A DNA stretch of 64,000 bases, from the NCBI GenBank assembly GCA_945883785.1, contig CAMCYD010000001.1:1-64000 (forward strand), in the 5' to 3' direction. The stretch is from Helicobacter pylori PMSS1 (GTDB taxonomy: Bacteria; Campylobacterota; Campylobacteria; Campylobacterales; Arcobacteraceae). Position numbers and translations under genes: made by a program. The notes beneath the pieces are model-generated. The model made no database searches and had not been told where the DNA came from. It saw nothing but the letters and a program-made list of their open reading frames with translations. Of the stretch, positions 12,937 to 62,162 are shown piece by piece. Numbering within the stretch: the stretch's first letter is position 1; every line of letters starts with the position of its first letter.

Positions 12937-12940
12937 ATGT

Positions 12941-31694: not shown

Positions 31695-32987
31695 TCACAC
31701 CAAACATTCACTCCCATACTTAACAATATCCACCCCATATTTATCCCTCATTAGTGAGAGTTTTTCATTTAAAGCTTTAAACTTTAAATCTTTTTCAAGT
31801 TCAAGGATTGAGAATGTTTTTATATTGTGCTCATTTGCAAAATTAGAAGAACTTAGAGCAATATAGTGGATCTTATATCCTGGATGGTTATCTAATCTTT
31901 TTATCATCTTTAATGCTAAATCGATAAAAAATCTTTCATTAAAGAGTCTACTTTCACTTAATGATACAGAGTTCTTTAACCCATATTCATATCGTATTTT
32001 AAAATAAAAGGTTGTTGGATTGAGTGAGAGTTTTGCTATAGTATGACTAAGATACCTTGCAAGTATTGTAACCCTTCTATATATTTCCCCTCTATCACTG
32101 ATTGCTTTAAAGTTTCTACTTATCCCAATCCCCCTTCTATCACTATAGGGGATAACTTTTTCATTATCAGTACCACAAATTCTTTTATAGAGATCTCTTC
32201 CTGTTTTTCCATAAGGGGTTAATAGAGTAGGGCGCTCTCGAAGAACGCCAAGAGTTTTTACCCTTTTACTATCAAGCATTTTTCCTAATGCACTTCCAAT
32301 CCCTGGGAAATCATGAACAAAGTAATCTTTTGTGAAATCTAAAACATCTTTCTCTTCTAAAACAAACACCCCATATGGTTTGATTTTATCAGTTAAGAGT
32401 TTGGCTATCCATTTTGATTTGCTAGCAGCTATTGTTATTGGTAAATCAAACTTCTCCATAATCTCATCTCGTAAATTGGTAATAAACTCCAATGTATCTT
32501 CATCTTTTATCCATCCCCCAAGGTCACCAGCCCACTCATCAATTGATAGAACCTCTAATACAGGGATTTTGAGTTCTAAAAAGTTTTTGAGTTTTGAGGA
32601 GAGTTCCACATAAAAAAGATGATCACTTGGTATTACTATTAGATCAGGGCACATCCTAAGAGCATCTCTAAGGGGTGTTCCTGTTTGAATTCCATATTTT
32701 TTTGCTTCATAGCTTTTTGTAATTACAATCCCATGGATAGTCCCATCCTCATCAATAAACTCTTTTTTCCAAGCATTGGTTATATGATCAGCATAATAAT
32801 TTGTTCTAAATTCAAATGCACTATTAAATGCTCCAGCTCCACCAACCATCACACCACTTTTTTTGTTATTACTAAAAATTGTTTTATCACTCCCTTTTAC
32901 AATGACAACATTTTTCCCTTTTAAAAAAGGGTATCTGGTTCGTTCAGCCGAACAAAAAAAGCAGTCTAAATCCAAATGTATCTTCAT
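31695..32987 (-). CDS. Y-family DNA polymerase (UmuC/DinB-like)
   Basis: MKIHLDLDCFFCSAERT, SIDEWAGDLG, HDFPGIGSALGKML. Confidence 0.9.
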   Translation of the reverse strand: MKIHLDLDCFFCSAERTRYPFLKGKNVVIVKGSDKTIFSNNKKSGVMVGGAGAFNSAFEFRTNYYADHITNAWKKEFIDEDGTIHGIVITKSYEAKKYGIQTGTPLRDALRMCPDLIVIPSDHLFYVELSSKLKNFLELKIPVLEVLSIDEWAGDLGGWIKDEDTLEFITNLRDEIMEKFDLPITIAASKSKWIAKLLTDKIKPYGVFVLEEKDVLDFTKDYFVHDFPGIGSALGKMLDSKRVKTLGVLRERPTLLTPYGKTGRDLYKRICGTDNEKVIPYSDRRGIGISRNFKAISDRGEIYRRVTILARYLSHTIAKLSLNPTTFYFKIRYEYGLKNSVSLSESRLFNERFFIDLALKMIKRLDNHPGYKIHYIALSSSNFANEHNIKTFSILELEKDLKFKALNEKLSLMRDKYGVDIVKYGSECLV

Positions 32988-33084
32988 ATCTTTCCCTAAT
33001 ATCTCTAAAATTAAAGGAACTATAACTATAATTTCACAATAGAATAAAAAAGTTAAAGAATATTTAATTAAAATAGGAAACCAA

Positions 33085-33753
33085 ATGGAAATAAAAGAGA
33101 TTATTGAAAAACTAAAAGATATCCTATCGTTAGAACTTCAAACGAAAAAGGTATTTGAAAAAGATGTAGCACAAGCTCTAAATCTTTCAAAAGAATCCCT
33201 CTCAATCCTTAAAAAGAAAAACGGAATCCCCTATGAAGCAATAGCAAAGTTTTGTGCAAAGAGGAAAATATCAATTAATTGGGTTTTATTTGATCAACTT
33301 CCAAAATCTCTTGAAGAGGAAACAAACAAATACACAAAAATAAAACACTTTACCAAAATCAATGCAAGTGCAGGGGGAGGGGGGATAAACTTTGATGAGG
33401 AGTATGAATATCTCTCTATAGATAAAAAACTCCTTGATTCTCTTTATAAATCAAATAATGCCAATCCAAACTCTATTGTTGCTTTAAATGTAATAGGGGA
33501 CTCAATGGAGCCAACCTTACAAGATAAAGAGGTGATTCTAATAGATATAGAGGATAATGAACTAAAAAATGGTGGAATATTTATAGTATTAACCAATAGT
33601 GGATTATTTGTAAAAAGGATAGCTTTGAAAATTGATGGTTCACTTGAACTTATCAGTGATAATAAAAACTACAATAGTGAAATACTCTCAAAAAACGAAC
33701 AAGATAGCATCAATTTTTTAGGTAAAGTGATAGGGAAAGTGGCAGTGGTTTAA
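33085..33753 (+). CDS. CI/LexA-like repressor: HTH + S24 peptidase
   Basis: KDVAQALNLSKESLSILKKKNGIPYEAIAKFC; NVIGDSMEPTLQDKEVILID; GGIFIVLTNSGLFVKRI. Confidence 0.88.
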   Translation: MEIKEIIEKLKDILSLELQTKKVFEKDVAQALNLSKESLSILKKKNGIPYEAIAKFCAKRKISINWVLFDQLPKSLEEETNKYTKIKHFTKINASAGGGGINFDEEYEYLSIDKKLLDSLYKSNNANPNSIVALNVIGDSMEPTLQDKEVILIDIEDNELKNGGIFIVLTNSGLFVKRIALKIDGSLELISDNKNYNSEILSKNEQDSINFLGKVIGKVAVV

Positions 33754-33808: not shown

Positions 33809-34345
33809 ATGATGATTATTTTACCAACTCAAAACCTCCAAAAGTTTCTTCATATCCCTGGCAAAGGGGTCCCTTTACCTGATATTGCAAATCTTGATGC
33901 TCTTTGGCATGGGAATATATTTCTTCATAAAAAAAGAAAAGTGATTCAACTTACCCATGAGATCTCAAGATATACAATCTTTATCTATGGTATCACCCAA
34001 AAAGATTTACAAAATCTTCCAAAGATTATCAATGAACATCTCCATTACCATATCATCAAAGATAAAATACCACAAAAAGAAGCTAGATACATTTTAGATA
34101 TCTCAGAAAACTTCTCCTATTTTAAAAGAACAGATAAAAAAGTTTTAGGGACAATGAATAACCAAAAGTTTATATTTGAAACCCTTTGCGAAGAAGAACA
34201 AACTATTAATGATAAAGGAATCTCCCATAAAATTAACCATATGATTTTCTCATTCAATGGTGAATACCATACTCCTTCTAAAGTATTCAAAGAGTATTTC
34301 CAAATGACAATCGAACAAATGGAAGATAGTTTTGAGACGATATGA
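33809..34345 (+). CDS. hypothetical protein (178 aa)
   Basis: Intact ORF, ATGA overlap with the next gene. Confidence 0.5.
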   Translation: MMIILPTQNLQKFLHIPGKGVPLPDIANLDALWHGNIFLHKKRKVIQLTHEISRYTIFIYGITQKDLQNLPKIINEHLHYHIIKDKIPQKEARYILDISENFSYFKRTDKKVLGTMNNQKFIFETLCEEEQTINDKGISHKINHMIFSFNGEYHTPSKVFKEYFQMTIEQMEDSFETI

Positions 34346-35863: not shown

Positions 35864-37417
35864 TTATTTCTCAATTAAAGTCAATTTTTCATTATTTGTC
35901 ATGTGAGCACTTTTTGTAAGAACACCAACACCTCTAGCTAATAAATACCATGCAAATATTGGACCGAAAATAACCAAATACGAAAGTCTACTTGCTAAAG
36001 AGATACCAATATCTGGAGCTATTTTTTTCAATGCATTTTCATATTGTTCATAACTTATTTTTTTTCTTGCATATGCCATTGTAAACGGCCATATTGCTCC
36101 AATAAGAGAAACAGCCACTCCACCAATAACAACTTGATTGGCGTTAATCGAGGGTTCAATTGAGCTGATTAGCTTGTCTATATTTTCTTCAGTTATATTT
36201 TGAAGTGATTCATTATCAATTCCACTTCCAATTATTCTAGAATCATCACCATATATTTTTGCAATCTCATCTGTAGTCATAATAATTGTATCTGGGTATT
36301 TTTCAAGTGCATGTTCTATAATAGATTTATTTTCTGTTGCCTTCAAAGAAACTTCTATAATTTCACCTGTTTGTGGATTTGAGAAAATAATATCAGAATC
36401 AGGATGACTTTCATCTTCAAATAATTTTGCTTCCCAAATATCGCTATCAGTATTTTCTTTTTGAGCAACCATTAGTTCGAACATTTTTCCTTTTACAGTA
36501 TTTACTACTCCAACTAATGCTTCTTGGTCATATTGTGAGAATTTTTCAGCTATCTCTTGAACAGTTGCATCTGGTGCTAATTGTGCTGACCATCTTAATC
36601 GTATAGCTTCTAAAAATAGATTTCCTAGTGGACCATCTAATTTTTCATATGAACCTTGAATAAGGTAAGCCATTGATGCTGTTGCAAAGATTTCTCCATT
36701 GATTGATTTCGAATCTTGAACAAAATCACCCGTAAACCATTGTTTTAATCTTGTGCCTACTTTTTTAATATTATCAATAGAAAAAACATTTTTAAGTGTT
36801 TGGAATTGATATGATAATAGCTCTTTTGAAGCAGTTGAAATTTCCAATAACATTCTTGCAGGAATTTTAAAACTACCATCTTTTTTTGCCTCTTTAAATC
36901 CAACCCAAAATAAAATTCCTACAAAATTTGTAATAGCTAACTCAGCAAAAATCAACGGGTTAATCCCTGGTATTATTGAAAACATACTAAATCCAAAACT
37001 CAATAAGGTTTTAAATCCATATAGAATTATCCCAGCAGTAGCTGCAAGTATTCCAAAATATTTAAAAATATCACTAGGTTTATCTAATTTAATTCCAATA
37101 TGCTTTGCAATTGCATAAGCCATATATCCCTCTAATGCCATAGATACAAATACACCGACACCCAGTTTCCCAGGTAATCCAGCTAATACAGCATTAATAA
37201 GAGCTACCTGAGTTATGATGAAGTAAATATCCTTATCAAATGTTTTTAAAGGCGTATGGAACAAGTCTTTAAATGGTTCAAAAATAAAGTCATTTAGGGT
37301 TTTATCTTTAAATAATTTTTCAATCTTTTCAAAGTTTTCTTCAAAATATACTTTGGCACCTTCTAAATTTTTGGAGTAAAAAGAAAATTTATCATTGATA
37401 TTTGTTTTATTGTCCAA
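35864..37417 (-). CDS. multi-TM protein with internal PD-(D/E)XK-like segment (517 aa)
   Basis: Several TM helices; GKMFELMVAQ...SDIWEAKLFEDESHPDSDIIFSNPQTGEIIEVSLKATE...IIMTTDEI. Confidence 0.6.
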   Translation of the reverse strand: MDNKTNINDKFSFYSKNLEGAKVYFEENFEKIEKLFKDKTLNDFIFEPFKDLFHTPLKTFDKDIYFIITQVALINAVLAGLPGKLGVGVFVSMALEGYMAYAIAKHIGIKLDKPSDIFKYFGILAATAGIILYGFKTLLSFGFSMFSIIPGINPLIFAELAITNFVGILFWVGFKEAKKDGSFKIPARMLLEISTASKELLSYQFQTLKNVFSIDNIKKVGTRLKQWFTGDFVQDSKSINGEIFATASMAYLIQGSYEKLDGPLGNLFLEAIRLRWSAQLAPDATVQEIAEKFSQYDQEALVGVVNTVKGKMFELMVAQKENTDSDIWEAKLFEDESHPDSDIIFSNPQTGEIIEVSLKATENKSIIEHALEKYPDTIIMTTDEIAKIYGDDSRIIGSGIDNESLQNITEENIDKLISSIEPSINANQVVIGGVAVSLIGAIWPFTMAYARKKISYEQYENALKKIAPDIGISLASRLSYLVIFGPIFAWYLLARGVGVLTKSAHMTNNEKLTLIEK

Positions 37418-37494
37418 GTCATTCCCCTTAATAGAAATTTCTTCTAAATTAATTATCAGTAGTCATATTTTATTTTTTATTAGCCAAGACTAGT

Positions 37495-38184
37495 TTACTT
37501 AATGATTTGAAAAATACTTGTTCCACAAACTATAAGAACAAAAACTAATATAACATACATTATATTAGTTTGCTTTTTATTATCCTCAGTTAATTTGTTT
37601 GACATAGCTGATAATGTTTGTTCTGAATGTGACTTCAATTGGTTTAAATTATGAGTAAGCTCATTTCTAATATCAGTTTGAATAGCAATTTTTAATTTAT
37701 CAAGAGTTGTGTTAATTGTTGAATCTAAATTTCTTTGAAATGATTTATTTTCAATATGGAGATCATCAATATTTTTTATAAACTTTTTATTAAATTCATC
37801 ATTTGATGTCTGAAGTTTTGTGAGATTATTTTCAATCATTTTTCCAACATCATTCCTTAATAAGTCATTATTTTTAAATAATTCATCAAATTTGGATGAT
37901 GTATTGGTATAAAAATCATTATTAGATTGCTGAATATCATTTAACATTTTTTCGATATTTGACCGAATATTAGAGAATACCTCATTATAGCTATTTGTAA
38001 TTTTAATTAATTCATCCCTACTACTATTAATTAAATCAACACTTTGGGCAAGATTACTCGCTGTAGTATTTATAGATAGATCTAATCCTTCTATTCTTTT
38101 TAAAACTGTTGAAAACTCTTTGATATTTTCAAGTTCATTTTCAAGCTCTGTAATAACTTCATTTATTTTAATTAAATCTGACAT
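37495..38184 (-). CDS. coiled-coil protein with C-terminal TM anchor
   Basis: Heptad-rich sequence, C-term TNIMYVILVFVLIVCGTSIFQIIK; 13-bp overlap with the fusion gene. Confidence 0.65.
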   Translation of the reverse strand: MSDLIKINEVITELENELENIKEFSTVLKRIEGLDLSINTTASNLAQSVDLINSSRDELIKITNSYNEVFSNIRSNIEKMLNDIQQSNNDFYTNTSSKFDELFKNNDLLRNDVGKMIENNLTKLQTSNDEFNKKFIKNIDDLHIENKSFQRNLDSTINTTLDKLKIAIQTDIRNELTHNLNQLKSHSEQTLSAMSNKLTEDNKKQTNIMYVILVFVLIVCGTSIFQIIK

Positions 38185-41100
38185 ATTTTCCCCATTGTTT
38201 GATATATTTTTTTAAGTCTAGTTGTGTAGCTATTTATAATTATTGCAGCTGAATAATCGTCTTCTAATGATTTATAAATTTTGTATTTAAATTCACCATC
38301 ATGAAAATGTCCAAGTAAAAACTGAGCCATTTCTCTCTTTGTGTCCATATTTAATGTTTGAATTATAGTAAGTAAATTTGTGATAATGAAATCTGGATCA
38401 AAGTTAGCATCTTCTTTTATTTTTTGTATCGATGATGACATCCTTAAAGAACCATCAGAATTATCAAAGTCACTTAATAACAATCTTGTTAGACCGCTAA
38501 TAAAATCTAAGCCAGGATTGCTCATATAGCTTTCGAGAAATCTGCTTAATTGATCTTTTAGTGCCACAAGTTCAGAGTTGCTTATTAAAACATTTTCTTT
38601 GGAATAAAAAACATCAAACCACTTAGTATAATCATATGGATAATCAGCAATGTGTTGAAGTAAAAAACTAGCTTCATTGAATTTGAAATAATTTTCTAAT
38701 GTCTGTTTGAACTCATCTTTTGAAATTACACTTGAGCTTAGATTTAAACAATTTTCATATACATTCTTTAATGATTGTCGTCTATTATATGCAAAATGAT
38801 CGTACGACCATATTAGTAAAACCAAAATTGATTTTTCAATCTCAGAAAATCGATCTGGATTTTGATATAAAACATAGTAATAGTTACTTTGAATATCTTT
38901 TTGAAAACTATCAAAAGAAAAGTCTTTTTCATATTTATGAATTACATCTAAGAGATTGTTTCTAATTGTTTTCTCACTTAAATCCTCTGCTATTTCAATT
39001 TCGAATATCCCTGAAAAAAAGTTATCAATTGTCCAATCTTTGATAATTCCTAATTGGTTGAGTCTATAAATTGCTTTTTCAACTTTAGCTTTATTACTTA
39101 GTAGCTTTTTACTTTCTACTTTAGTGTTATTGGTCATACAGTAACTATTAAAAAGGTTTCTTATCAATTTAAACTCATTGTTAATTGTGTCTAAACTATT
39201 AGCAAACATAAAAAAGTTAGTATTAATATCACCAGTTGTTTTCTTTTGAAGTAAAGATATCTGATCTAAATTAGTTTTAGGATCCCAAAGTTGATCTAAT
39301 ATTGTTTTATTTTCATCTTTTTCTTTTGAGAACAATACAATACATTTTGCTTTTTTAGTTAAAAACTTTTGTTTATCTCTTCCTGCTCTTCCTGCTTCTT
39401 GATATAATGATTCCATAGAAGCTGGTAATCCATAATGAATTGTGTAATGAATATTTCCTTTATTAACACCCATTCCAAAAGCTTTTGTGGCGGCTAATAA
39501 TGTAAATTCATTTTTTTTAAAACGATCTTGAACATCCCGTTTGAATATATCAAATTCTTTTTCAGGCATTATTGGCATTTTATTAATGGTTGGCACACTA
39601 CCAGAGTAATAAAGTATCTCAGTTTGAAATTTTTGCGTTAAATGTTGAGAAACTTCAAAGCAACCTTTTTTGCCGTTTACTGTTGGTGTAAAAATAATTC
39701 CACACTTACTTTCATTTCCATTGGGTGCAAAAATAGATGATTTCTCATTAAGATTTGTTAAAATCTTTTCTATAGCATTTAGTTTTTGTTGTTGATCGTC
39801 AATGACATTAAATACTAACTCTTTTCTGGTATAGCTGAGTGGAGTTTTAACATTCATTTGTGAAATATTAAATTCATTCTGAATATCTTTTAATACATTC
39901 AGTGATGCTGTTGCTGTCAACCCTATGTATCTAGAGTCTGGAGAATATCGTTTTATTGTATTTGATAAATTGAGATAGGATGTTCTAAAGTCATGCCCCC
40001 ATTCTGAGAGACAATGTACTTCATCAATTACAGAATAAGCAAAATGAAGGTCTTTATTAATTTTGCTTAATTCTAAACGAAAAGTTTTTGTTTGAAATCT
40101 TTCAGGCGAGATAAATATAAAAAGATATTTACCATTCGAGAATTGATTAGCAACTTGTTCTTTTTCAAATGATTCCATATCACTTGTAATATAATTGCTT
40201 CTGTGAAATAAAATTGAATCTAAGTCCGCCTTTTGGTCATACATTAATGATTTAATAGGACATACTACAAAGCTAACGGCAGGCTGTAATAATGCTGATA
40301 ATTGATAACAGATCGATTTTCCACTTCCAGTTGGTAGTAATCCAATTGTATCATTACCACTTAAAGCATTGGCTATAATTGCTAATTGTCCTTCGTTAAA
40401 GTCTAAATTAGGAATTTCTTGTAGAAAAATATTCTCTAAAAAGAATAATAAACTAAAATAATCTGAACCTTCATCTCCAAATTGAAATTTATAGTCTATT
40501 GGCGTAGTTGTTGATATTCTAAAATAATCATATGGTTTAAATTTGAAAAGATCAATGTTAGTGGCATTATCTAGATTAAGGTATTGATACTCATCCAAGT
40601 AGTGATTTCTGACAAATATGATATTTTGATTATGCTGGAATTCATCTGTGTATCGTTTCATAAGACTAAAGTCAATTTTTATGGTGTTGTTTCCACTTGA
40701 ATGTTTTTTGTTTTTATGAATATATTGAATTGAATAGTGTGGTCTAAGGAATGGAACTTTTTGAAGTTTATAAATATGTTGAAACCAGATAAATAGATCC
40801 TCAATAGCCAATTCTATAAATTCTTCTACATCATGTAATTTAACCTCTAAACGCCAATCACTCTCAAACGATAAGATCCCGTTTTCTAATAGTTCAAGAA
40901 GTACTAATTGTATACGAATAATAGAAGTAGCTTTTAAAAAAGTATTATTATAGTCATCATTAAGAGCATATGCAGCCTGGTAATCTTTAAGAGATATAAA
41001 TTGTGGCTCACTTTTTTTTCGTTTTTCCTGAAACTCAATAAAATCATTAATTCTATTTTTAATTTGATTTATTGTGTTGAAAAAAAACTCATTTTCACTC

Positions 41101-42836
41101 TCTAAATCATTCGTTTTAATTCTAAAAACTTCAATACCAAATTTTCTTAAATAATTGTCTCTATTGATATCATCAAGATTATTGTCACCATGCTGTGAAC
41201 CGTCAATTTCAATTACTAACATAGCTTGTTGTAAATAAAAATCAACTTGTTGCTTTGCAAATTCTTTAGATTGAGCTTGAGTTATTTCATAAATTGTAAC
41301 TTCTGGCAAAAGTAAAGATTGAATAAAAGATAATTCTTTTAAATATTTTGGAATAATAATTTCAAAAAACTTTTTCGCAGGATAATATTGTGCCCTATCA
41401 TCTCCCCTAATAATATTCTTCCATTTTGGAGTACTTGCTTCAATAAATGCTATAGAGTTTCTAAAAAAAGGATCTTTTTGTAAACTTCCTAAATTCATCT
41501 GCAAAAATTTAGACATTAAAGTTGGCTTTCCACGTTGAAGGATATTCTTTAAAATAAAAATACCAGGTATATATTTCATGTGTGTTGTTGAAGTATAGAA
41601 TCTATTATCATATAGGTTTTGTACAATAAAATTATGATTAGAATTAGTGTAGTTTGCAGTAAAAAATTTGTTAAAAAATTTGTTTGTATTTTTTTTAGCT
41701 TTTAACATTTGGAATGTTTTTAACAATTTTATATTATGAATTTGCTTGAATGACAAGCTAGAATCAGCATATGAAGTTTTAACTAGAGAGAAGATATAAC
41801 ACTTGACATCAGGATAGTCATGATGAATCGCTCGTATAATTTCATTTGTTGTAGCACCACTTGTAAATACATCATCAATAATTAAAATTGAACTATCTTT
41901 AGTCAAATGTTTAGTAGAAACATCATTATCTAGATAATATTTATGATGAATTTCATTATATCTTTCAATTTGAGTTAATGTAGTGGATTTTTTTGTTTTA
42001 GAATGCTTTTTAAGAAGGTTTGGCAGATAAATTGTTTTTGTAAATTGTGTTATTGAAAAAGCTAATTCATCCAGAGGTGTATTAGTCTCTGTTATTTCCA
42101 TTTCTTCATGCCCAAGGGCTCTTACAACAAAATTAAATTTAGGCAAAAGCTCCACATTTTCGCATACAATTGAAATCCATTCATTAATTACAATAGTTTT
42201 ACGACTTTTAAAATCAAGTAATTTATATTTAATTTCATCCAAATAGTAACCTAAATAAAAGTGATCATCTTCATGCTGAATCAACTTAGCATTGAGTTCG
42301 TTCAAAATAAGAAGTTCAAAAAAGTTATTAGTTGAATCATTTTCAAGGAATTTGATTAAATGAGGTGAATTAAATTTCCCCCAAGGAACACCTACAAAAT
42401 CTATATTTGCATTTACAGCAGTTTTATAATCAAGCTCATCGTCACCAATAAATATAACATCATTTTCTTCTAACGAAAAATATTTTAAGATTTTGGTGAT
42501 ACCTTCTGGGGATGGTTTGTGTAAAGTTACATCATGATAAGCTACTATAAAATCACAATGTATATTAAAGTTCAAAAGAGCATTTTCTAAATACATTTTT
42601 GGAGAATTAGAGAATATTGCTATTAGTATGTTATTTTCGTGAGCAAGATTAATAAGATTAATTGTCGATTGATGTAATGGACAATTTTTTAATTCATTTA
42701 TTGCTGATGACCAATCTTTGTTTTTTCTATATTCTAATAAAGAAGATGTATCGGCAATCGTATTGTCAAAATCTAAAATTAAACATTTAATCAAAAAGAC
42801 CCCTTTGTGTCTTTTTTGGTTGTTGAAGTTTCTCAA
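38172..42836 (-). CDS. multidomain HAD phosphatase - phosphoribosyltransferase - nuclease-like - RecQ helicase fusion (1554 aa)
   Basis: HAD: LILDFDNTIADT, IFSNSP, FIGDDELDYKTA. PRTase: ILIIDDVFTSGATTNEI. DUF559/Vsr-like: LVIEIDGSQHGDNNLDDINRDNYLRKFGIEVFRIK. RecQ: LLPTGSGKSICYQLS, SVIDEVHCLSEWGHDFR, GLTATAS, LYQEAGRAGRDKQ. Confidence 0.9.
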   Translation of the reverse strand: MRNFNNQKRHKGVFLIKCLILDFDNTIADTSSLLEYRKNKDWSSAINELKNCPLHQSTINLINLAHENNILIAIFSNSPKMYLENALLNFNIHCDFIVAYHDVTLHKPSPEGITKILKYFSLEENDVIFIGDDELDYKTAVNANIDFVGVPWGKFNSPHLIKFLENDSTNNFFELLILNELNAKLIQHEDDHFYLGYYLDEIKYKLLDFKSRKTIVINEWISIVCENVELLPKFNFVVRALGHEEMEITETNTPLDELAFSITQFTKTIYLPNLLKKHSKTKKSTTLTQIERYNEIHHKYYLDNDVSTKHLTKDSSILIIDDVFTSGATTNEIIRAIHHDYPDVKCYIFSLVKTSYADSSLSFKQIHNIKLLKTFQMLKAKKNTNKFFNKFFTANYTNSNHNFIVQNLYDNRFYTSTTHMKYIPGIFILKNILQRGKPTLMSKFLQMNLGSLQKDPFFRNSIAFIEASTPKWKNIIRGDDRAQYYPAKKFFEIIIPKYLKELSFIQSLLLPEVTIYEITQAQSKEFAKQQVDFYLQQAMLVIEIDGSQHGDNNLDDINRDNYLRKFGIEVFRIKTNDLESENEFFFNTINQIKNRINDFIEFQEKRKKSEPQFISLKDYQAAYALNDDYNNTFLKATSIIRIQLVLLELLENGILSFESDWRLEVKLHDVEEFIELAIEDLFIWFQHIYKLQKVPFLRPHYSIQYIHKNKKHSSGNNTIKIDFSLMKRYTDEFQHNQNIIFVRNHYLDEYQYLNLDNATNIDLFKFKPYDYFRISTTTPIDYKFQFGDEGSDYFSLLFFLENIFLQEIPNLDFNEGQLAIIANALSGNDTIGLLPTGSGKSICYQLSALLQPAVSFVVCPIKSLMYDQKADLDSILFHRSNYITSDMESFEKEQVANQFSNGKYLFIFISPERFQTKTFRLELSKINKDLHFAYSVIDEVHCLSEWGHDFRTSYLNLSNTIKRYSPDSRYIGLTATASLNVLKDIQNEFNISQMNVKTPLSYTRKELVFNVIDDQQQKLNAIEKILTNLNEKSSIFAPNGNESKCGIIFTPTVNGKKGCFEVSQHLTQKFQTEILYYSGSVPTINKMPIMPEKEFDIFKRDVQDRFKKNEFTLLAATKAFGMGVNKGNIHYTIHYGLPASMESLYQEAGRAGRDKQKFLTKKAKCIVLFSKEKDENKTILDQLWDPKTNLDQISLLQKKTTGDINTNFFMFANSLDTINNEFKLIRNLFNSYCMTNNTKVESKKLLSNKAKVEKAIYRLNQLGIIKDWTIDNFFSGIFEIEIAEDLSEKTIRNNLLDVIHKYEKDFSFDSFQKDIQSNYYYVLYQNPDRFSEIEKSILVLLIWSYDHFAYNRRQSLKNVYENCLNLSSSVISKDEFKQTLENYFKFNEASFLLQHIADYPYDYTKWFDVFYSKENVLISNSELVALKDQLSRFLESYMSNPGLDFISGLTRLLLSDFDNSDGSLRMSSSIQKIKEDANFDPDFIITNLLTIIQTLNMDTKREMAQFLLGHFHDGEFKYKIYKSLEDDYSAAIIINSYTTRLKKIYQTMGKICQI

Positions 42837-43782
42837 TCATTTCGTTTATCATTGTTGTCACAACACTATAAGTTTCTTTTGAATATGGAATCGCTTTTTT
42901 TTCTGATAATAAATTTTCTATTCCCTCAATTTGTTTACAAGGTATATAAGACAATTTGCTAAGATCAGGACAAAATAAAAGTCGTTCTTCTTTCAAGCAA
43001 TTATGAACAGCATGCATAGTACCGCCATTTTTACTTGTTTCAATTGCAAATACTGCTGCTGCTAATCCACTTTGAATACGATCTCTAGAGACAAAATGTC
43101 CTGGAACAATTTTTGTCCCAGGAGGATTTTCGGCTATCCATAAGCCATTATTCTTTAATATATTTTCGGCTAATTGTCTATTCTTAGCAGGCTGTACATT
43201 TTCAACATCTACTAATATAGCTATTGTTTTTCCATTATTTATTAATGTTTGCTCATGAGCTATGCTATCAATACCAAGAGCTAAACCACTAACGATAACA
43301 AATCCTTTAGAACATAAAAAATCTACACTTTTACGAGTGATTTTATCGCCTAATTCAGTATTATCTCTTGTACCTATTACAGCGATATTATTCCAATTGT
43401 TTAAAAGACTAATATTACCTTTACAGTACAAGAATAAAGGAAAGTTATCTGCCAATAACAAAATTTTAGGATAGCTAGGATTCATATAACTGATTAAGAC
43501 AATATTGTTCGAATTGTAGAAATTTATTTTATCTAAAGCAATTTGGTAATACTTGTGAAAATCATTGGAAATAATCGAATCTTCTAGAATGGAATAATAT
43601 TGGGGTCTAATTTTAGTCGCCAAAAGTGAAAGATTTAAATCTAATAATGAATCACAATCATCTTCACTCATTGTGTGTATTATGTCTTTGATTGTTTTTG
43701 GACCTATGCCTTTAAGCATAGTCATTGCAAGAATTTCTGTATCGCAAATCATATGAATAACCCTAACTATAAAATCTTGCAC
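42787..43782 (-). CDS. DprA/Smf-like protein
   Basis: IAVIGTRDNTELGDKITRKSVDFLCSKGFVIVSGLALGIDSIAHEQTL; IAENPPGTKIVPGHFVSRDRIQSGLAAAVFAIETSKNGGTMHAV. Confidence 0.92.
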   Translation of the reverse strand: MQDFIVRVIHMICDTEILAMTMLKGIGPKTIKDIIHTMSEDDCDSLLDLNLSLLATKIRPQYYSILEDSIISNDFHKYYQIALDKINFYNSNNIVLISYMNPSYPKILLLADNFPLFLYCKGNISLLNNWNNIAVIGTRDNTELGDKITRKSVDFLCSKGFVIVSGLALGIDSIAHEQTLINNGKTIAILVDVENVQPAKNRQLAENILKNNGLWIAENPPGTKIVPGHFVSRDRIQSGLAAAVFAIETSKNGGTMHAVHNCLKEERLLFCPDLSKLSYIPCKQIEGIENLLSEKKAIPYSKETYSVVTTMINEMIEKLQQPKKTQRGLFD

Positions 43783-44018: not shown

Positions 44019-46076
44019 ATGAATTTGAAAAAAGATACAATGAAAAGAGGATGGTTTATGGAAAAAATCAAAGATAGTTTAGAAACATTTTTTACAATTT
44101 GGGGAATTCTTTTAATTGTTAATCAAGCTGTTATATTTGGAGGCTGTTTTAATCCATTGTGTATATTTGCTGCATTACCTCATACAGGAGTAATAGCATT
44201 TTACTTAACACTTTTAATCTCTAATGAGGACAATACTTTAAAATATAATGAAGTTGATACACAACCGCAATACGACAAAACAAAAGTTCATGCGGCAAAT
44301 CCTTTCATCAATAACAAAAAGGAGACAGAAAAAAACACTGATTATGTTGCTAATATAGGTCTTATCTTTACAAATAAGTTAATTATTACCCAAGATAAAA
44401 TAACTTGGAAAAATACAACTTTCTTATTGAATGAAATAACCGAGTTATCATGGGGGATACTAGAATATACAGACACAGGTTGGGGAACAACAAAAACAAC
44501 CTACTATATAAATTTTAAAGATAATAATGTTATTGCTAATATTGTAGTCGATAAAAAAAGAATATATGATGAAATAATTTCTAGATTAAATTTAGCCGTA
44601 GGTCAACGTATTACGAATGATTGGATAGAGTTTTTTAATAATGATAAAGTCAAAAGTTACAATAATGCAATTATTCATAATGATGGTGTAATTATTCGAA
44701 AAAAAACTTTTTACCCCCCAGTGAAAAAGATGTTTTATTGGAATGAAATAGTTGCTACTGCCAGAAATGGTAATTTTATCATTGAAGCAATAGAAGACAA
44801 AAAATTTAATGTAGAAATAAGCTTTAGAAATTTTTATAATATTTATTTTCTTAAGAATTTAATTTTAATGGTGAAAGAAAATCAAAATATTACAAAAATA
44901 AGTGATTTGAAGAATATAAATCATAATCGAGATATTCAAAAGTTGAATTATGTACTCAAATCCCTAGAATTAAGTCTCCAAAATGTAATTGAGAAAAGAG
45001 CAGAGTATCTAAATAATATAAAAGAATTCAAAAATACATACAATCTCAATCTTGGAGAACTTATAAGAAGCATTTTTATTTTAAAAAAAGAGATTCTTTA
45101 TCAACAGATTATCAAATTGGAACAATTTGGAGAGCCGTATAAAAGTAATTTTAAAATATTTGAAGAGTTTAAAGGGACTATTAATGAGTTTGAAAGGAAA
45201 GAAGAGTACGTTGAAGATTACAGGATAAAAATGATGTACGAAGAAGCAAAAGTAAATTTTGATGAGTATGAAAATGAATACAAACAATCAAAAGAAAACC
45301 AAAAAGATGTGTTGCAACTAAGCGATGATGAAAAAGTTGAAATTAAAGAACTTTTCAAAAAAGCAATAAGACGGTTCCATCCTGATATAGTTCCTGATGA
45401 GTTTAAAGAAAAAACAACGAAAATTATACAGCAATTTAATGATGCCTATAGTAATAAAAATTTAAAAAAAGTTAAAGAGATAGTCTCAAGTTTAGAAAAT
45501 GACTTTGTTTTTGAATTTGCAAGTAATATTATAGAAGACAAAATTGAACTCCAAGAAAAAATCAATGAGTACAAGCAAAATATAAAAGAAATAGAAGATG
45601 AGATAGCTCGTATTGTTGAGGATGATACTTTTCAAACTATAAGTGAAATTGATGATTGGAATTCCTATTTCGAAGCACGTAATAGGGATCTTGAAAAGGG
45701 AAAAGAGATTCTTGTAGAAGAATTTAAAATTATTTTCGAAGATAAGATCAAAAGGCATATTAAGGATAATCTTAGATCAGATAAATTTGATGGGTTGCTA
45801 ATTGATAGATATAATATTGAAATACTTGAAATTCAAAATAACACTGCCTATCTAAAGACTAAATATACTGGTTTAATTCCAATATATAGTTATGTGAATA
45901 TAGAAGCAGCAATTAAAGATAAAACACATTTTCAATGTATTTTGGAAAATCCTTTTTGTAAAGTTGTACTTTTGGATGACTATTTCGGTATACGAGGATT
46001 TGGGATTAATTCGAATGAATATAAAGAATTAAATACTGGAAATGACATAGAATATCAGAAAATATTACAATTATAA
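44019..46076 (+). CDS. membrane protein with PH-like region and J-domain-like core (real start may be 44058)
   Basis: N-term LETFFTIWGILLIVNQAVIFGGCFNPLC; central VLQLSDDEKVEIKELFKKAIRRFHPDIVPDEFKEKTTKIIQQFNDAYS with HPD motif. Confidence 0.75.
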   Translation: MNLKKDTMKRGWFMEKIKDSLETFFTIWGILLIVNQAVIFGGCFNPLCIFAALPHTGVIAFYLTLLISNEDNTLKYNEVDTQPQYDKTKVHAANPFINNKKETEKNTDYVANIGLIFTNKLIITQDKITWKNTTFLLNEITELSWGILEYTDTGWGTTKTTYYINFKDNNVIANIVVDKKRIYDEIISRLNLAVGQRITNDWIEFFNNDKVKSYNNAIIHNDGVIIRKKTFYPPVKKMFYWNEIVATARNGNFIIEAIEDKKFNVEISFRNFYNIYFLKNLILMVKENQNITKISDLKNINHNRDIQKLNYVLKSLELSLQNVIEKRAEYLNNIKEFKNTYNLNLGELIRSIFILKKEILYQQIIKLEQFGEPYKSNFKIFEEFKGTINEFERKEEYVEDYRIKMMYEEAKVNFDEYENEYKQSKENQKDVLQLSDDEKVEIKELFKKAIRRFHPDIVPDEFKEKTTKIIQQFNDAYSNKNLKKVKEIVSSLENDFVFEFASNIIEDKIELQEKINEYKQNIKEIEDEIARIVEDDTFQTISEIDDWNSYFEARNRDLEKGKEILVEEFKIIFEDKIKRHIKDNLRSDKFDGLLIDRYNIEILEIQNNTAYLKTKYTGLIPIYSYVNIEAAIKDKTHFQCILENPFCKVVLLDDYFGIRGFGINSNEYKELNTGNDIEYQKILQL

Positions 46077-46094
46077 AAGAACTAAGGATTTTTA

Positions 46095-47432
46095 ATGTTT
46101 TTGATTCATTTTAAAAGGTTTATACTTTGGATAATGGCTACCGTTTTAATTGGAATAGTAATTAGTTTAGCTTCAATTTTTAGCAGAGAATTAACATTAA
46201 ATACTGTAAAAATAAATGAGTTTAAAATTTATTATTCATTTTTAAATCAAGAAACAAAGCATAATGAAGTTTTGGTAAAATCCCAATTTGATATTTTATT
46301 ATCTCCTAAAAAGTTTCCATTATTACCAATTGCACTAATAGGAAAAGACACTTGTATTGACAATGTCAATAAATATTATAATGACCGTTTTAATCTTTCA
46401 ATTTGCAATAATTTGTCATACAATCAATTGAAAAGTAATGAAATTGAAGTGCAACAATATTATGATTCGCAAATCATAGTCTATAAGAAGCAGTATTTTT
46501 TATTTAAAGAGTTAGAACACACTAATAGTTTTTTAGTTGCAAGAATTAATGATTATTACGCCAAAAATGATTTTTCTAGATTTTTAATCTTTTTATCCTC
46601 AAAGGAAGGGTTGTCTTGGCTGACATCTTATAATTCGTTTCAAACATTTTTATCAAAAACCCAATTTATCTGGTTTATACTTCTTCCTCTCTCAGTTGTT
46701 TTATATTTAGTCTTAACAATGTATTTTTTAAATAAAACAAAAAAATTTAATGCTTTAAATTTTGAAAAAGAACAACTAGTTCAAAAATGGGGTGAAATAA
46801 ATAACGATATAAAAAACTTATCAAGCGAACAAGATGATTTAGAAACTAAAATTAATGAACAAGGAAAAAATTCAATTGCTTCAGAAGTTTCATTAGAAGA
46901 TTTGCAGAGTAAACTAGATGTAGTTATAGAAAAGAAAAATAATTTAATTAAGAGTTTAAAAGCAATAGAAGAAAAAGAGGAAATTTTATTTCAAAAAATA
47001 AATAATGCTTTGAAAAATATCACAACTCAAGAGAAAGAGAACATTTTAAAAAATATACAAGTGAAGCAATCTCAGATTGATCAATTATGGAAATATACTC
47101 CAACTTGGCAGGAGAGACATTTGATTGAAAATAATGTCTCTTTACGAGATGATTTTACCCCTTTTACAATCAGTCAAGCTTTTATATGTTTTGAGCAAAT
47201 CATTGAAAGTATCGTAGTAAAAATTAATGATGAATATAAAGATAAGAATTTAATAGAACAAATCAATATTATTTTTGAGAATAATCTTTGGCCTGCTCAA
47301 TTTGAACAACAATTGCACTCAATTAGAATAGCTAGAAATAAATGGTTTCATCATGGTAAAGAACCAAGTAAAGAAGTTTTTATTTCATTATTAGATGTCT
47401 TGGATAAAACAAATACTCGTCCATTGTTGTAA
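46095..47432 (+). CDS. membrane-anchored coiled-coil protein with C-terminal HEPN-like (Swt1-type) domain
   Basis: Two TM segments, coiled coil, C-term LHSIRIARNKWFHHGKEPSKEVFISLLDVL (R-x4-H). Confidence 0.65.
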   Translation: MFLIHFKRFILWIMATVLIGIVISLASIFSRELTLNTVKINEFKIYYSFLNQETKHNEVLVKSQFDILLSPKKFPLLPIALIGKDTCIDNVNKYYNDRFNLSICNNLSYNQLKSNEIEVQQYYDSQIIVYKKQYFLFKELEHTNSFLVARINDYYAKNDFSRFLIFLSSKEGLSWLTSYNSFQTFLSKTQFIWFILLPLSVVLYLVLTMYFLNKTKKFNALNFEKEQLVQKWGEINNDIKNLSSEQDDLETKINEQGKNSIASEVSLEDLQSKLDVVIEKKNNLIKSLKAIEEKEEILFQKINNALKNITTQEKENILKNIQVKQSQIDQLWKYTPTWQERHLIENNVSLRDDFTPFTISQAFICFEQIIESIVVKINDEYKDKNLIEQINIIFENNLWPAQFEQQLHSIRIARNKWFHHGKEPSKEVFISLLDVLDKTNTRPLL

Positions 47433-54588: not shown

Positions 54589-56313
54589 ATGGAATTAGTT
54601 TATTTATGGATTAAAGAGTATAAAAATATTAAAAATCAAGGATTTAATTTTGCCCCAAAGTTTGAGTGTGAGTATAAAAATGGAAATTTAACTATTTGTG
54701 ACAAAAAAGCAAAAGATGATAATTGTAAGAGTAAAGATTATATTGAAAACTTTTTTGGAAAGAATATGAATATTACTGCTATCGTTGGCGAAAACGGGAG
54801 TGGAAAGAGTAATATTTTAAAGGCTTTATTTCAAAATGATGATCACTCATCTGCTTATGATGAATTATGGTATATTTTATATAGTGAATTTGACAATAAA
54901 TTAAATATATACTTTATAGATCGCACGGGAATCAAAGAAAAAAGGGATGTAGAAAAAAACTTTACGCACAATATTGAAACATTAAAAAACGAAGCAACTC
55001 TTCAAACTGAATTGAATTTTAGTATGGTATATTTTTCTAACATATTGCACTATTTACCTGTACATAACGACAAGCAAAAGAAAAGCTTTTATAATATTTC
55101 TACATCGTATTTAATTGATAGATATACTAAAAAAATATCAAATGATAAATTTATAGAGTTTAAATATCAGTATAATTATTATAAATCAAAGATTATAGAG
55201 CAAACAATAATTATGCTTAAAGATAGTGAGATAAAGCTAGATTTTTTATTGCCACAAGACTTAAACATAGTCACACTAGATACCTATCCTACAGATAAAA
55301 TTGAAATTATGGAAAAGTTATTAAAAGAAGAAGATAGTATGGATTTTAGACAAAGAGTGAAAAAAAATGTAATATATAATTTTCTTTTTAATTATTTAGA
55401 TCAAGATGAACTTTTTCAAAGAATTACTACTGATGATAAAAAAACAATACAAGAATTTTATGAAGAAATTAAATCAACAATACCACTAGCGGATGAATTA
55501 GACGATTTTTTAAACTTATTAGAAAATCCAAATTTTTTCATGACAAGTGTTAAAATTCAAGATATTGATAAGGAATTTATAAAAAAATTAAAAAAATTTA
55601 ATTCAATACAAGCATTATCTTTAGGAATTTTAGATGTTTTTCATTTGAATTGGAAACCAGAGTTAAGTTCTGGGCAAGAAAATTATCTCTTCCAATTTGC
55701 TAGTTTTTACAATTTATTTAAAAATGGTACAAACTTAAAAAACGATATTGTGATTCTTATCGATGAGGGTGAAACTACAATGCACCCAAATTGGCAAAAA
55801 AAATACATAAACTATTTACATAAATTTTTTAAAAATAATTTTTCTGATAAGCAAATTCATCTAATTGTTAGTTCCCACTCACCATTTATCCTTTCAGACA
55901 TACCAAAAGAAAATGTAATATTTTTAGAAACACATAAAAAAGACGATATTGAAGTAAAAGAAGCTAGTCAACAGGTTGGTGATTGTAAGAATGCAACAAA
56001 AGATATAAACATTAATACTTTTGGAGCAAATATCCACACTCTTCTTTCTAATGGATTTTTTATGGATGATGGACTGATGGGGAAATTTGCAAAAGGTAAA
56101 ATTACAGAAGTGTTGAAGTACTTAAACAAAGAGAAAAAACTAAAAACTATAAAAAAGAAACAAATAAAATCTATCATTGACTCTATTGGTGAGGATTTTT
56201 TGAGAAATAAACTTTTGGATTTGTATTATAAAAAATTTAACATAAAATCTAAAGATGATGAGATAAAAGAATTAAGAGAAGAAATTGAAAGATTAAAGAA
56301 TGATAGAAATTAA
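54589..56313 (+). CDS. AAA ATPase of Septu PtuA/retron-ATPase type
   Basis: ITAIVGENGSGKSNILKALF; LSSGQENYLFQFASFYNLF; ILIDEGETTMHPNWQKKYINYL; LIVSSHSPFILSDIPKENVI. Confidence 0.8.
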   Translation: MELVYLWIKEYKNIKNQGFNFAPKFECEYKNGNLTICDKKAKDDNCKSKDYIENFFGKNMNITAIVGENGSGKSNILKALFQNDDHSSAYDELWYILYSEFDNKLNIYFIDRTGIKEKRDVEKNFTHNIETLKNEATLQTELNFSMVYFSNILHYLPVHNDKQKKSFYNISTSYLIDRYTKKISNDKFIEFKYQYNYYKSKIIEQTIIMLKDSEIKLDFLLPQDLNIVTLDTYPTDKIEIMEKLLKEEDSMDFRQRVKKNVIYNFLFNYLDQDELFQRITTDDKKTIQEFYEEIKSTIPLADELDDFLNLLENPNFFMTSVKIQDIDKEFIKKLKKFNSIQALSLGILDVFHLNWKPELSSGQENYLFQFASFYNLFKNGTNLKNDIVILIDEGETTMHPNWQKKYINYLHKFFKNNFSDKQIHLIVSSHSPFILSDIPKENVIFLETHKKDDIEVKEASQQVGDCKNATKDININTFGANIHTLLSNGFFMDDGLMGKFAKGKITEVLKYLNKEKKLKTIKKKQIKSIIDSIGEDFLRNKLLDLYYKKFNIKSKDDEIKELREEIERLKNDRN

Positions 56314-59510: not shown

Positions 59511-62162
59511 GTGGATATTAAATTAGAAGAATTATTGATAAATAGGGTAAAACTATTATTGCAATCACTTCAAAATGGAGATTTTGAGATAAGTCAAATG
59601 CTTGTATCAAAGATTTCGCCACTTGATAATGTTGATAAGGAATTGGATAATATTTTGGAAGATATTATGTATGAAAAATATCAAATAGCGATAGAGAAAT
59701 TGTCAAATTATTGTGAAATAAGAGATGAAATTTTGAATAAACTTGAAGATAATCATAATGATTTGGTTATCTTCAATGACCAAGAACTCTCAAGTCTCAA
59801 GCTTGAGCTCAAATCCCTAGAATCCAAACTCCAAAATCTAATAGAGCAAAAAACAGAGTACCTTAGTGATGTAGAGGAGTTCAACAACGAATACAATCTT
59901 CATCTTGGAGAACTTATAAAAGCGATCCTAAGTCTAAAAAAAGAGATACTCTACAAACAAACCATAAAACAAGTACGACTTAAAGAAAAATACAAAGAAA
60001 ATCTCCAAACATTTAAAGAAACCAAAGAGACTATCGAAGAGCTTAAAACCACTATCGCAGAGCTTGAAGAGGCACTCGAAAATATAGATGAAGATGATGA
60101 GGACTATGAAGAGCTAACAAAAGCCCATAAAGAACTCCAAGAGGAGATAGAAGTACTTGAAAAAGAGCTAGAAAATCAAGAAGAAGAGCTTGAAAAAACA
60201 AAAGAGTTTATCGAAGATGAGACGATAGAAGAGGAGTACGAAGAGGCAAAAGCAAATTTTGATGAGTATGAAAATGAATACAAACAAACCAAAGAGAATC
60301 AAAAAGATGTGATGCAACTAAGTGATGATGAAAAAGCAGAACTCAAAAAACTTTTCAAAAAAGCAGCGAGACTGTGCCACCCTGATATAGTCCCTGATGA
60401 AGAACTAAAGGCACAAGCAACGGAATTGATGCAGCAGCTTAATGATGCCTATAGTAAACAAGATTTGGAACGAATTAAAGAGATACTTTCAAGTCTAGAA
60501 AATGGGACTGTTTTTGAAACTACTAGTGATAAGCTAGAAGATAAAATCAAACTCCAAGAAAAAATCAAAGAGTACAAACAAAATATCAAAGATATAGAAG
60601 ATGAGATAGCTAGGATTATGGAGGATGATACTTATCAAACTATCAGTGGACTTGATGATTGGGATGGCTATTTTGAAGAGCTAAAAAGTGACCTCGAAGC
60701 TCAAAAAGAGGAGCTGGAAGAGGAAGCTATGGGGATTTTGGAAGAGAAAGAGGAGGAAACTTCTGAAATATCCAAAATAGTAGAAGAAGAGATACCTGAA
60801 TGGATACAAAAGATTTGGGATTGGGCGGATGAGAATAATATTTCTAACGATCAACTTTCGAGAAAGAAAGAAAATTTACTTGCAAAAACAAACATTGATT
60901 TTACTGGGATGAAATTAAAAAATATACCAGATGAAATTTGTCATCTTGAAAATATAACAACATTGATATTGTGGGATAATGATTTGGCATATTTGCCACA
61001 AGATATTGTGAAGTTTGTAAATCTGAAAAAGTTAAATTTGAGAGGTAATCCAAATCTTACAATCACAGCTATTCAGAAAGAATGGATTAATAATCTTAGT
61101 AAACAATGTATTGTTTTTATGGATGAAGTTAGATTGTACAGAGATGATTATGATAGTAGCAATGAAGAGTTTAAAAAAAATGAATTAACACAACAAATCA
61201 TAAATATAGTATTAAGAGATTTTAAAAATGAGCATCATATCGATTTAAGCACTAACTATCAAATAATGCTTAGAATAAAAGATGCCGCTAAAAAAGCTGC
61301 TAATAATTTAATTCACAATGAAGAAGCAAATTTTGTATTAAATTATATCACTTACATAAAAAACAAACCTATCAATATAGAAAAAATTTTCAAACAAGAA
61401 AGCTTTGGTCTTATGAATCCAGTGAATGTAAGGATTGTAAAAAATGAAGATAAACCTCTTCATCCCCCAAAACAAAAAGAAAATAAAACAACTTCTGAAA
61501 ATAGTCCTTATTCACAATATATCCAAGCTATCGAAAATCCATCATTTGAAAAGATAAGATGGTACTGTAATAATCTTATGGGTAAAGATGAAGCTGATGG
61601 GATGCAAAAATATTTAGCCGAAAATGGCAGAATGCACAAAGCACTTATCTATAATGCACTGGAGCAATTTATCTTGCAACTCAATGGGAAAAATCTCACT
61701 TTGGTTGAATGGGGATGTGAGCAAGGGATAGCTTCTATGTTAGTGCTTGACTATATCAGAGAAAAACAGCTTGATATTGAAGTGGCTAAAGTGATTTTAA
61801 TAGAAGATGACACAAAAGCACTCAGTCGTGCAATGGCACACAATCAAGTATTTGTAAGTCAATCTGTAGAAATATCTGGATTTGATAGTAAAGATAAGAC
61901 ACTTTCTACAAAACTAAAAAATACAAAAGACTCAAATTTTCTTCATATTTTTGCAAATGACACGATGCCTATGAAGTTCAAAGATGTAGGATTTGAAAAT
62001 ATTCCAAATAGTTATTTTATGTGTATTTCATCTGCAAACAGTGCATTTTTGGAAATGGTACACTCAGAAATATCAGGTTTATCAAATACAAAAACCTTAT
62101 CAAGTAGAGATGGGCAAATTGGAAGATTTAAAAGATTTGAGAGAATATTTAAGACTAATTAG
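59511..62162 (+). CDS. J-domain-core + LRR + methyltransferase-like modular protein (883 aa)
   Basis: MQLSDDEKAELKKLFKKAARLCHPDIVPDEELKAQATELMQQLNDAYS; LRR NITTLILWDNDLAYLPQDIVKFVNLKKLNLRGNPNLT; LTLVEWGCEQGIASMLVLDYIREK. Confidence 0.75.
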   Translation: MDIKLEELLINRVKLLLQSLQNGDFEISQMLVSKISPLDNVDKELDNILEDIMYEKYQIAIEKLSNYCEIRDEILNKLEDNHNDLVIFNDQELSSLKLELKSLESKLQNLIEQKTEYLSDVEEFNNEYNLHLGELIKAILSLKKEILYKQTIKQVRLKEKYKENLQTFKETKETIEELKTTIAELEEALENIDEDDEDYEELTKAHKELQEEIEVLEKELENQEEELEKTKEFIEDETIEEEYEEAKANFDEYENEYKQTKENQKDVMQLSDDEKAELKKLFKKAARLCHPDIVPDEELKAQATELMQQLNDAYSKQDLERIKEILSSLENGTVFETTSDKLEDKIKLQEKIKEYKQNIKDIEDEIARIMEDDTYQTISGLDDWDGYFEELKSDLEAQKEELEEEAMGILEEKEEETSEISKIVEEEIPEWIQKIWDWADENNISNDQLSRKKENLLAKTNIDFTGMKLKNIPDEICHLENITTLILWDNDLAYLPQDIVKFVNLKKLNLRGNPNLTITAIQKEWINNLSKQCIVFMDEVRLYRDDYDSSNEEFKKNELTQQIINIVLRDFKNEHHIDLSTNYQIMLRIKDAAKKAANNLIHNEEANFVLNYITYIKNKPINIEKIFKQESFGLMNPVNVRIVKNEDKPLHPPKQKENKTTSENSPYSQYIQAIENPSFEKIRWYCNNLMGKDEADGMQKYLAENGRMHKALIYNALEQFILQLNGKNLTLVEWGCEQGIASMLVLDYIREKQLDIEVAKVILIEDDTKALSRAMAHNQVFVSQSVEISGFDSKDKTLSTKLKNTKDSNFLHIFANDTMPMKFKDVGFENIPNSYFMCISSANSAFLEMVHSEISGLSNTKTLSSRDGQIGRFKRFERIFKTN

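Follow-up and report, generated by a model that had tools for sequence, protein, structure and literature searches.

Introduction

ShosTA is a compact two-gene system with a stand-alone toxin, ShosT (432 amino acids, aa), and a DprA-like antitoxin, ShosA. In the summary given by PMC12593503, citing Pu et al. 2025, ShosT combines phosphoribosyltransferase (PRTase) and pyrophosphatase functions that upset the purine pool and so lead to duplications in the DNA, filamentation, and cell death, while ShosA binds DNA and counters ShosT, with T7 Gp0.7 as a trigger. ShosTA has also been grouped with systems activated by phage single-stranded DNA-binding protein (SSB) (PMC10732053), and P2-like phages carry a DprA–PRTase pair (Rousset et al. 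2022) that defends against both T7 and lambda (PMC9122126). The PRTase carried by the RecQ helicase of RqlHI (PsyrTA) is genotoxic when not restrained by the DprA-like RqlI (PMC4670107). Here we analyze an operon in the first 64,000 nucleotides of contig CAMCYD010000001.1 (assembly GCA_945883785.1, Helicobacter pylori PMSS1; this whole stretch is referred to as the window) that encodes a DprA-like protein, a HAD–PRTase–DUF559 nuclease–RecQ helicase fusion, and a small putative membrane protein.

We think it likely, with some reserve, that these three genes form an anti-mobile-element, probably abortive-infection, system in which a ShosTA-type toxin–antitoxin is welded to a membrane-tethered helicase–nuclease. 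An initial annotation of the window had put the locus forward as a candidate anti-phage operon, and this view gains support: the operon is kin to the DprA–PRTase pair (PMC9122126), is larger than the published versions, and has homologues in defense islands.

Results

Organization of the operon and its fusion protein

Four open reading frames (ORFs) lie on the minus strand as listed in the initial annotation, at 42787-43782 (DprA), 38172-42836, 37495-38184, and 35864-37417. Shuffling the region 200 times produced no open frame longer than 145 codons, compared with 1554 in the fusion ORF. The conserved unit is three genes, for DprA, the fusion protein, and a coiled-coil protein ending in a C-terminal transmembrane (TM) helix, with the following features.

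42787..43752, minus strand: dprA-like gene, putative antitoxin of the ShosA type; the ORF reaches GTG 43782, and the probable start is ATG 43752 from homologue alignment
42800..42806, minus strand: Shine-Dalgarno-like AAAGGGG inside dprA, ahead of TTG 42794; inferred, read from the sequence
38172..42794, minus strand: fusion gene, 1540 aa, HAD–PRTase–DUF559 nuclease–RecQ helicase–helical C terminus
42345..42794, minus strand: HAD phosphatase domain, aa 1-150; Pfam HAD_2 2.9e-15; motifs kept in homologues
41760..42263, minus strand: PRTase domain, about aa 178-345; PADLOC ShosT 5e-6; PRTase_2 2.8e-5, under cut-off
41025..41297, minus strand: DUF559/Vsr-like nuclease domain, about aa 500-590; Pfam DUF559 2.6e-9; VDF...EIDGSQH...RD
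39300..40412, minus strand: RecQ-type superfamily 2 helicase core, about aa 795-1165; TIGR00614 6.1e-72, over cut-off
38172..39299, minus strand: C-terminal region, a winged-helix-like segment followed by an all-helical array in the AlphaFold model; kept in loci L112 and L113
37495..38184, minus strand: coiled-coil gene 3, 229 aa; single C-terminal TM helix (tail anchor)

The fusion protein had been described as a 1554-aa product translationally coupled to DprA. The coupling stands, the fusion gene overlapping dprA by 8 bp, but the length needs revision: homologues begin at the residue of TTG 42794 and AAAGGGG-TCTTT-TTG is found at that site, so the protein likely starts there and has 1540 rather than 1554 residues. 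The 13-bp overlap of gene 3 with the fusion gene was also as described, and the TM helix of gene 3 is single and C-terminal. Gene 4 lies 77 bp downstream. Scans for promoters and terminators found no more of them than in shuffled sequence.

All four predicted signatures occur in one protein with intact motifs (positions in the 1540-aa numbering). The HAD domain contains DFDNT (8-12), HKPSPEG (92-98), and GDDELD (117-122), the nuclease domain QVDFY (516-520) and EIDGSQH (529-535), and the helicase LPTGSGKS (820-827), DEVHC (924-928), and QEAGRAGRD (1132-1140). Pfam matches over cut-offs were DNA_processg_A for DprA (2.8e-49) and, for the fusion, HAD_2 and DUF559 with the values given above, DEAD (1.8e-20), and Helicase_C (5.8e-15). 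The PRTase_2 match scored 24.2 bits against a Pfam cut-off of 28.8; we nevertheless assign a PRTase domain because the phosphoribosyl pyrophosphate (PRPP) loop IIDDVFTSGATT is intact at aa 305-316 and homologues support it. DDVxTSGATT is invariant across the four-domain homologues, and DDV and Tx[GA]xT are present in all HAD–PRTases. The nuclease residues VD, EIDG.QH, and RD are likewise invariant, including in a Rhodothermus relative. The helicase scored 242.9 with the RecQ family model TIGR00614 (cut-off 219.8), a profile of the DUF559–RecQ half matched RecQ1, BLM, and RecQ with values down to 4e-68, and an AlphaFold model of this half (mean predicted local distance difference test, pLDDT, 71; predicted template modeling score 0.73) retrieved the RecQ fold in Foldseek. 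In two pairs of enterobacterial and Maribrevibacterium copies, the HAD, PRTase, DUF559, and RecQ segments had ratios of nonsynonymous to synonymous substitution rates of 0.06-0.18, and the linker that follows the PRTase had 0.33-0.50. Each catalytic domain is therefore being kept by purifying selection.

The N-terminal module and DprA resemble ShosTA

As judged from its sequence, the window system is a derived relative of ShosTA and not plain ShosTA. Both have a HAD–PRTase and a DprA of the ShosA type in one operon, and among the fold matches of the fusion N terminus ShosT ranks first. Compared with solved structures, the window DprA matched ShosA best (8zva/9vzo, 6e-27), ahead of canonical DprA (3uqz, 6e-21); in PADLOC it matched ShosA at 1.4e-61 versus PsyrA at 2e-25. 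Residues 1 to about 375 of the fusion match ShosT, a HAD–PRTase toxin of solved structure, with the PADLOC ShosT match (5e-6) being remote and a HAD–PRTase family profile aligning to the ShosT chain at 5.9e-6 in two stretches. An AlphaFold model of residues 1-788, of low confidence and used only alongside the sequence evidence, had ShosT as its top Protein Data Bank matches in Foldseek (8zvd/8zvb/8zvc). Unlike the stand-alone ShosT, the ShosT part here is fused to a DUF559–RecQ protein of more than 1100 aa, with dprA upstream and the tail-anchored coiled-coil gene following.

HAD–PRTase and DprA also occur as a pair by themselves. Locus L091, from the same bacterial family, encodes a 506-aa HAD–PRTase with an overlapping dprA, and the Pf phage PfAC02a carries a stand-alone pair annotated as ShosTA (PMC11878078). 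Fusion-linked DprAs group with the L091 DprA (91/90) and apart from RqlI (100/99), so the window DprA is not an RqlI/PsyrA-type partner. A dprA gene is present with HAD–PRTases that have no helicase (L091, L089) and absent where the HAD–PRTase is missing (L026, L112); DprA thus tracks the HAD–PRTase and not the helicase, which fits an antitoxin role. The DprA–PRTase pairs that the initial annotation had mentioned from phage-satellite defense screens proved to be related, coming from satellite/P2 screens (PMC9122126); they share DprA and PRTase and are without helicase, nuclease, or membrane partner.

RqlHI likewise places a RecQ helicase and a PRTase in one chain with a DprA-like partner. Its PRTase is C-terminal, however, whereas that of the window protein is N-terminal, and the latter has HAD and nuclease domains in addition. 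The RqlH clade joins canonical RecQ (95/93; 94/86 in a larger tree) and does not include the window RecQ core. These trees have long branches and some weak nodes, and we claim no order within groups. The helicase and DprA trees lend no support to a rearrangement of RqlH as the origin of the fusion. Since the window helicase lies outside the RqlH clade and the window DprA outside the RqlI clade, PRTase and RecQ came together on at least two occasions, each time with a DprA-like partner, which is convergent. RqlH/RqlI (PsyrTA) pairs are found in five relatives of the window genome (L197-L201), and both PRTase–RecQ designs therefore occur in this bacterial order.

A helicase–nuclease clade with a tail-anchored partner

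The remainder of the fusion, residues ~378-1540, is a DUF559–RecQ module that occurs alone in phages and plasmids: locus L112 has a version of 1176 aa next to a phage integrase, a large phage contig (L113) encodes one of 1153 aa, and Rhodothermus plasmids carry the module too. By their RecQ cores, the fusion and the stand-alone proteins group together (100/97; 100/99 with more members), apart from canonical RecQ and RqlH.

The sole hydrophobic helix of gene 3 lies at aa 210-228 by hydropathy. In 10 of 11 clade members, the helicase is accompanied by a small coiled-coil protein whose single TM helix is C-terminal: at the window, the Advenella/Klebsiella type, Rheinheimera (where the contig end truncates it), Marinobacterium, phage locus L112, Rhodothermus, Haliscomenobacter, Salinibacter, Thermomicrobium, and Thermus (where a transposase has displaced it). 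Of 849 ORFs with 150-300 aa in the retrieved loci, 21 look tail-anchored when judged by a similar criterion. Hosts of the proposed helicase/tail-anchor family comprise Campylobacterota, Pseudomonadota, a phage, Rhodothermota, Bacteroidota, Thermomicrobiota, and Deinococcota.

Plasmid helicase and tail-anchor pairs without HAD–PRTase or DprA were observed at L205:4869-9859, L206:4410-9332, L207:4275-8325, and L208:3789-9307, in Bacteroidota, Rhodothermota, Thermomicrobiota, and Deinococcota; the Thermus pair is split by a transposase. A Nostoc protein outside the clade had no tail-anchored coiled-coil neighbor. RecQ-like ORFs of 1600 aa in Campylobacterota were considered as relatives and rejected, as they belong to a different clade shared with the Nostoc protein. 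This second RecQ-like family, of about 1600-1670 aa (L092:653-5659, L093:1434-6353, L209:4242-9248), is common in Campylobacterota, is present in Nostoc, and forms its own clade.

DpdF, a RecQ-like helicase of 7-deazaguanine DNA modification, is the best PADLOC name for the fusion, and the PADLOC profile PDLC02868 spans DUF559 and RecQ in the window protein (3e-120). Membership in DpdF/Dpd was rejected: NCBIfam NF041063 scored 137.8 against a cut-off of 550 and Dpd partner genes were missing, none being present in the part of the window that was scanned or in the annotation of L021, L022, L026, and L090. NCBI annotation knows these proteins by no other names than RecQ family helicase, HAD-IA hydrolase, DprA, or hypothetical, and searches in the text of open-licence papers yielded no description of a HAD–PRTase–DUF559–RecQ protein or its tail-anchored partner. 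The operon had been called possibly undescribed; this applies to the fusion with its tail anchor and not to the HAD–PRTase/DprA half, known from ShosTA, and the RqlHI/PsyrTA pair is known as well. The helicase/tail-anchor pair may be an unrecognized family.

Distribution and horizontal spread

A tblastn search found eight full-length plasmid homologues in Klebsiella, Raoultella, and E. coli, covering 98% of the query at about 41% identity. A scan of genome contigs returned 62 matches, mostly ordinary HAD phosphatases, and five true homologues, in Advenella, Maribrevibacterium, Rheinheimera, Marinobacterium, and Vibrio. dprA precedes the fusion in every homologous locus read. The same three-gene order, with full-length fusions 40-41% identical to that of the window, is present in Klebsiella, Raoultella, E. 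coli, Advenella, Maribrevibacterium, and Marinobacterium; in Rheinheimera the order is the same up to the contig end, which falls inside the coiled-coil gene, and the Vibrio fusion gene contains an insert. The operon occurs in 7 of 5426 complete E. coli genomes (three chromosomal and four plasmid copies), an E. coli operon lying at NZ_CP067400.1 58621-64744, and among 397 genomes of the window's phylum the full DUF559 module was found only in the window's own. Several enterobacterial, Advenella, and marine copies share 94-99% protein identity although their hosts belong to different orders, indicating recent horizontal transfer. Viral contigs searched with the HAD–PRTase–DUF559 alignment contained no relatives. 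In two plasmid copies (L023:8001-10900 and L024:6001-11453), the helicase half is broken by insertion sequences and dprA and the HAD–PRTase part are intact.

Homologues cluster in defense islands, and the absence of such clustering had been set beforehand as an outcome that would speak against a defense role; the clustering is seen in Klebsiella, E. coli, and the window. The Klebsiella operon is flanked by a type I restriction–modification system and by the anti-phage gene hhe with a DUF262 gene. The E. coli chromosomal copy lies between type I restriction–modification and an MZA system on an element with an integrase. In Maribrevibacterium, the operon is inside an integrative and conjugative element (ICE), between traU/traN and ssb-recT-yqaJ, and the Vibrio copy has the same gene surroundings. 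This traN/ssb-type site is a cargo hotspot of SXT/R391-type ICEs.

Neighboring genes in the window

The window, too, is a defense island, on mobile Campylobacterota DNA, as judged from its gene content. PADLOC families in it are PDC-S26 (698-1996, 5e-86), PDC-M62A (54589-56313, 3e-97), PDC-S63 (33809-34345, 1e-14), PDC-M72B, and two AbiEii-like proteins, the second of them at 62628-63473. It also encodes a tyrosine integrase, ParA, and a DnaB-like protein resembling those on Aliarcobacter butzleri plasmids. The gene next to the operon is the following.

35864..37417, minus strand: gene 4, 517 aa, multi-TM with a PDDEXK-like segment, PADLOC PDC-M72B; neighbor, outside the core system

Gene 4 had been described as a multi-TM protein with a PDDEXK-like segment. 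Several hydrophobic stretches and a conserved SDIIF...EVSLKA segment are indeed present; a canonical PD-(D/E)XK motif is not, as D342 and K359 are kept and the acidic position two before the lysine is S or Q. Its C-terminal half matches PDC-M72B at 2.6e-23. Two membrane partners had been proposed for the operon, of which gene 3 is conserved and gene 4 is missing from every full homologous operon. Homologues of gene 4 (60%) occur without the fusion in the related genomes G013 and G050, and a distant two-gene form of the family is found in Sulfitobacter. We therefore reject gene 4 as a component. PDC-M72, the PADLOC candidate of the Sulfitobacter two-gene form, shares only the gene 4 family and is a neighbor of the fusion system; gene 4 is a candidate for a separate neighboring defense gene.

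Elsewhere in the window, 5960-14345 (minus strand) holds a cluster of large proteins (780, 734, 469, and 347 aa) with an AbiEii-like nucleotidyltransferase, a WYL regulator lying further on (4095-5054); the cluster is possibly an unnamed multi-gene defense system. Beside dprA, a divergent plus-strand pair (44019-47432) encodes a protein of 685 aa, one segment of which weakly resembles DnaJ, and a TM/coiled-coil protein of 445 aa that matches DUF4145 weakly. An 883-aa protein at 59511-62162 shows weak similarity to DnaJ and HSP70 and matches nothing in PADLOC. At 31695-33753, a UmuC-like polymerase is divergent from a LexA/CI-type S24 repressor, the pair probably being the SOS-type switch of the mobile element.

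Discussion

The operon combines two modules. In the first, the N-terminal HAD–PRTase would be a ShosT-type toxin that uses PRPP and upsets the purine pool, and the DprA-like protein a ShosA-type antitoxin. In the second, the DUF559–RecQ helicase–nuclease would be held at the inner membrane by the tail-anchored coiled-coil protein. The fusion would thus put the toxin onto a DNA-engaging machine. In a resting cell DprA would silence the complex; phage or plasmid DNA, or single-stranded DNA (ssDNA)/SSB replication intermediates, could be the trigger by occupying the helicase and DprA, whereupon the nuclease would attack the unwound DNA, perhaps cutting it directly, and the freed toxin would stop the cell.

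Several points weigh against this account. The N-terminal model behind the ShosT Foldseek match has a pLDDT of 50, and the likeness to ShosT is remote by sequence, with PRTase matches of 1e-4 to 1e-7. The clade member L113 has no tail-anchored gene (1 of 11), and TM calls rest on hydropathy only. DprA and RecQ are also ordinary repair proteins. Functional data on any family member were not found, and the PRTase–RecQ protein RqlH can be genotoxic without any known defense role (PMC4670107).

The same genes could instead make up a direct-acting, restriction-like system, in which membrane-held RecQ–DUF559 unwinds and cuts entering DNA, the HAD–PRTase is regulatory or nucleotide-sensing, DprA loads ssDNA, and there is no suicide. 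DUF559–RecQ with its tail anchor does occur without HAD–PRTase or DprA, so the helicase–nuclease–membrane unit is self-sufficient, and its nuclease residues are invariant. The membrane-bound nuclease SNIPE, which cuts phage DNA at injection (PMC13190303), may share the logic of siting a nuclease at the membrane, by analogy only because the protein families differ. We consider such a system unlikely, because the catalytic residues of HAD and PRTase are all kept under strong purifying selection and the co-occurrence of DprA with HAD–PRTase (L091, L089 versus L026, L112) fits an antitoxin better than a loader. A genotoxic toxin–antitoxin or DNA-stress module serving mobile-element maintenance rather than phage defense would draw on the precedent of RqlHI, where RecQ-linked genotoxicity depends on the PRTase and is restrained by DprA-like RqlI (PMC4670107), and on the location of the operon on plasmids, ICEs, and other mobile elements. 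It is distinctly improbable given that the helicase and DprA trees separate the operon from RqlH/RqlI, that its neighbors in several hosts are defense systems, and that ShosTA and DprA–PRTase pairs are reported to protect against phages (PMC9122126, PMC12593503).

The initial annotation had also suggested a nucleotide-like signal of the Ter type, which HAD and PRTase would make and the nuclease/helicase or a membrane protein would read. The PRTase_2 family is linked to Ter operons, and the weak match to it together with the HAD and PRTase pair is what speaks for this idea. That match is under the Pfam cut-off, no Ter genes were present among the window proteins scanned, a receptor domain was not seen, and ShosT is closer by fold and PADLOC, which leaves the signal highly improbable. 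The nearest characterized relative is instead a toxin reported to disturb the purine pool, in the account of PMC12593503 (citing Pu et al. 2025). Hardly any weight goes to DNA uptake or repair in a competent Campylobacterota host: DprA, ComFC-like PRTases, and RecQ are families serving competence and repair, yet separate housekeeping genes for DprA (G000:C80) and RecQ (G000:C22) exist in the genome, the distribution is patchy in both the phylum and E. coli, and the operon lies on mobile elements.

For the toxin-bearing helicase–nuclease as we understand it, we tentatively propose, at slightly less than even confidence, a wider setting. The helicase clade and its tail-anchored partner would be an unrecognized, widespread membrane-tethered DNA-defense family mislabeled as DpdF or RecQ, which in the window lineage would have captured a whole ShosTA; contact with invader DNA at the membrane would then directly fire a nucleotide-pool toxin, a design arrived at independently of RqlHI. 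The tail-anchored partner, spread over at least six host phyla and a phage, is a missing component absent from the lists of annotation tools. The operon links two poorly explained facts, the DprA-like antitoxins of PRTase toxins in ShosTA and the PRTase-bearing RecQ of RqlHI. That PRTase/DprA and RecQ came together twice in opposite domain order suggests a functional value in coupling a purine-pool toxin to a DNA-unwinding motor. What ShosA/DprA senses becomes a testable question, and tractable E. coli copies are available for direct assay.

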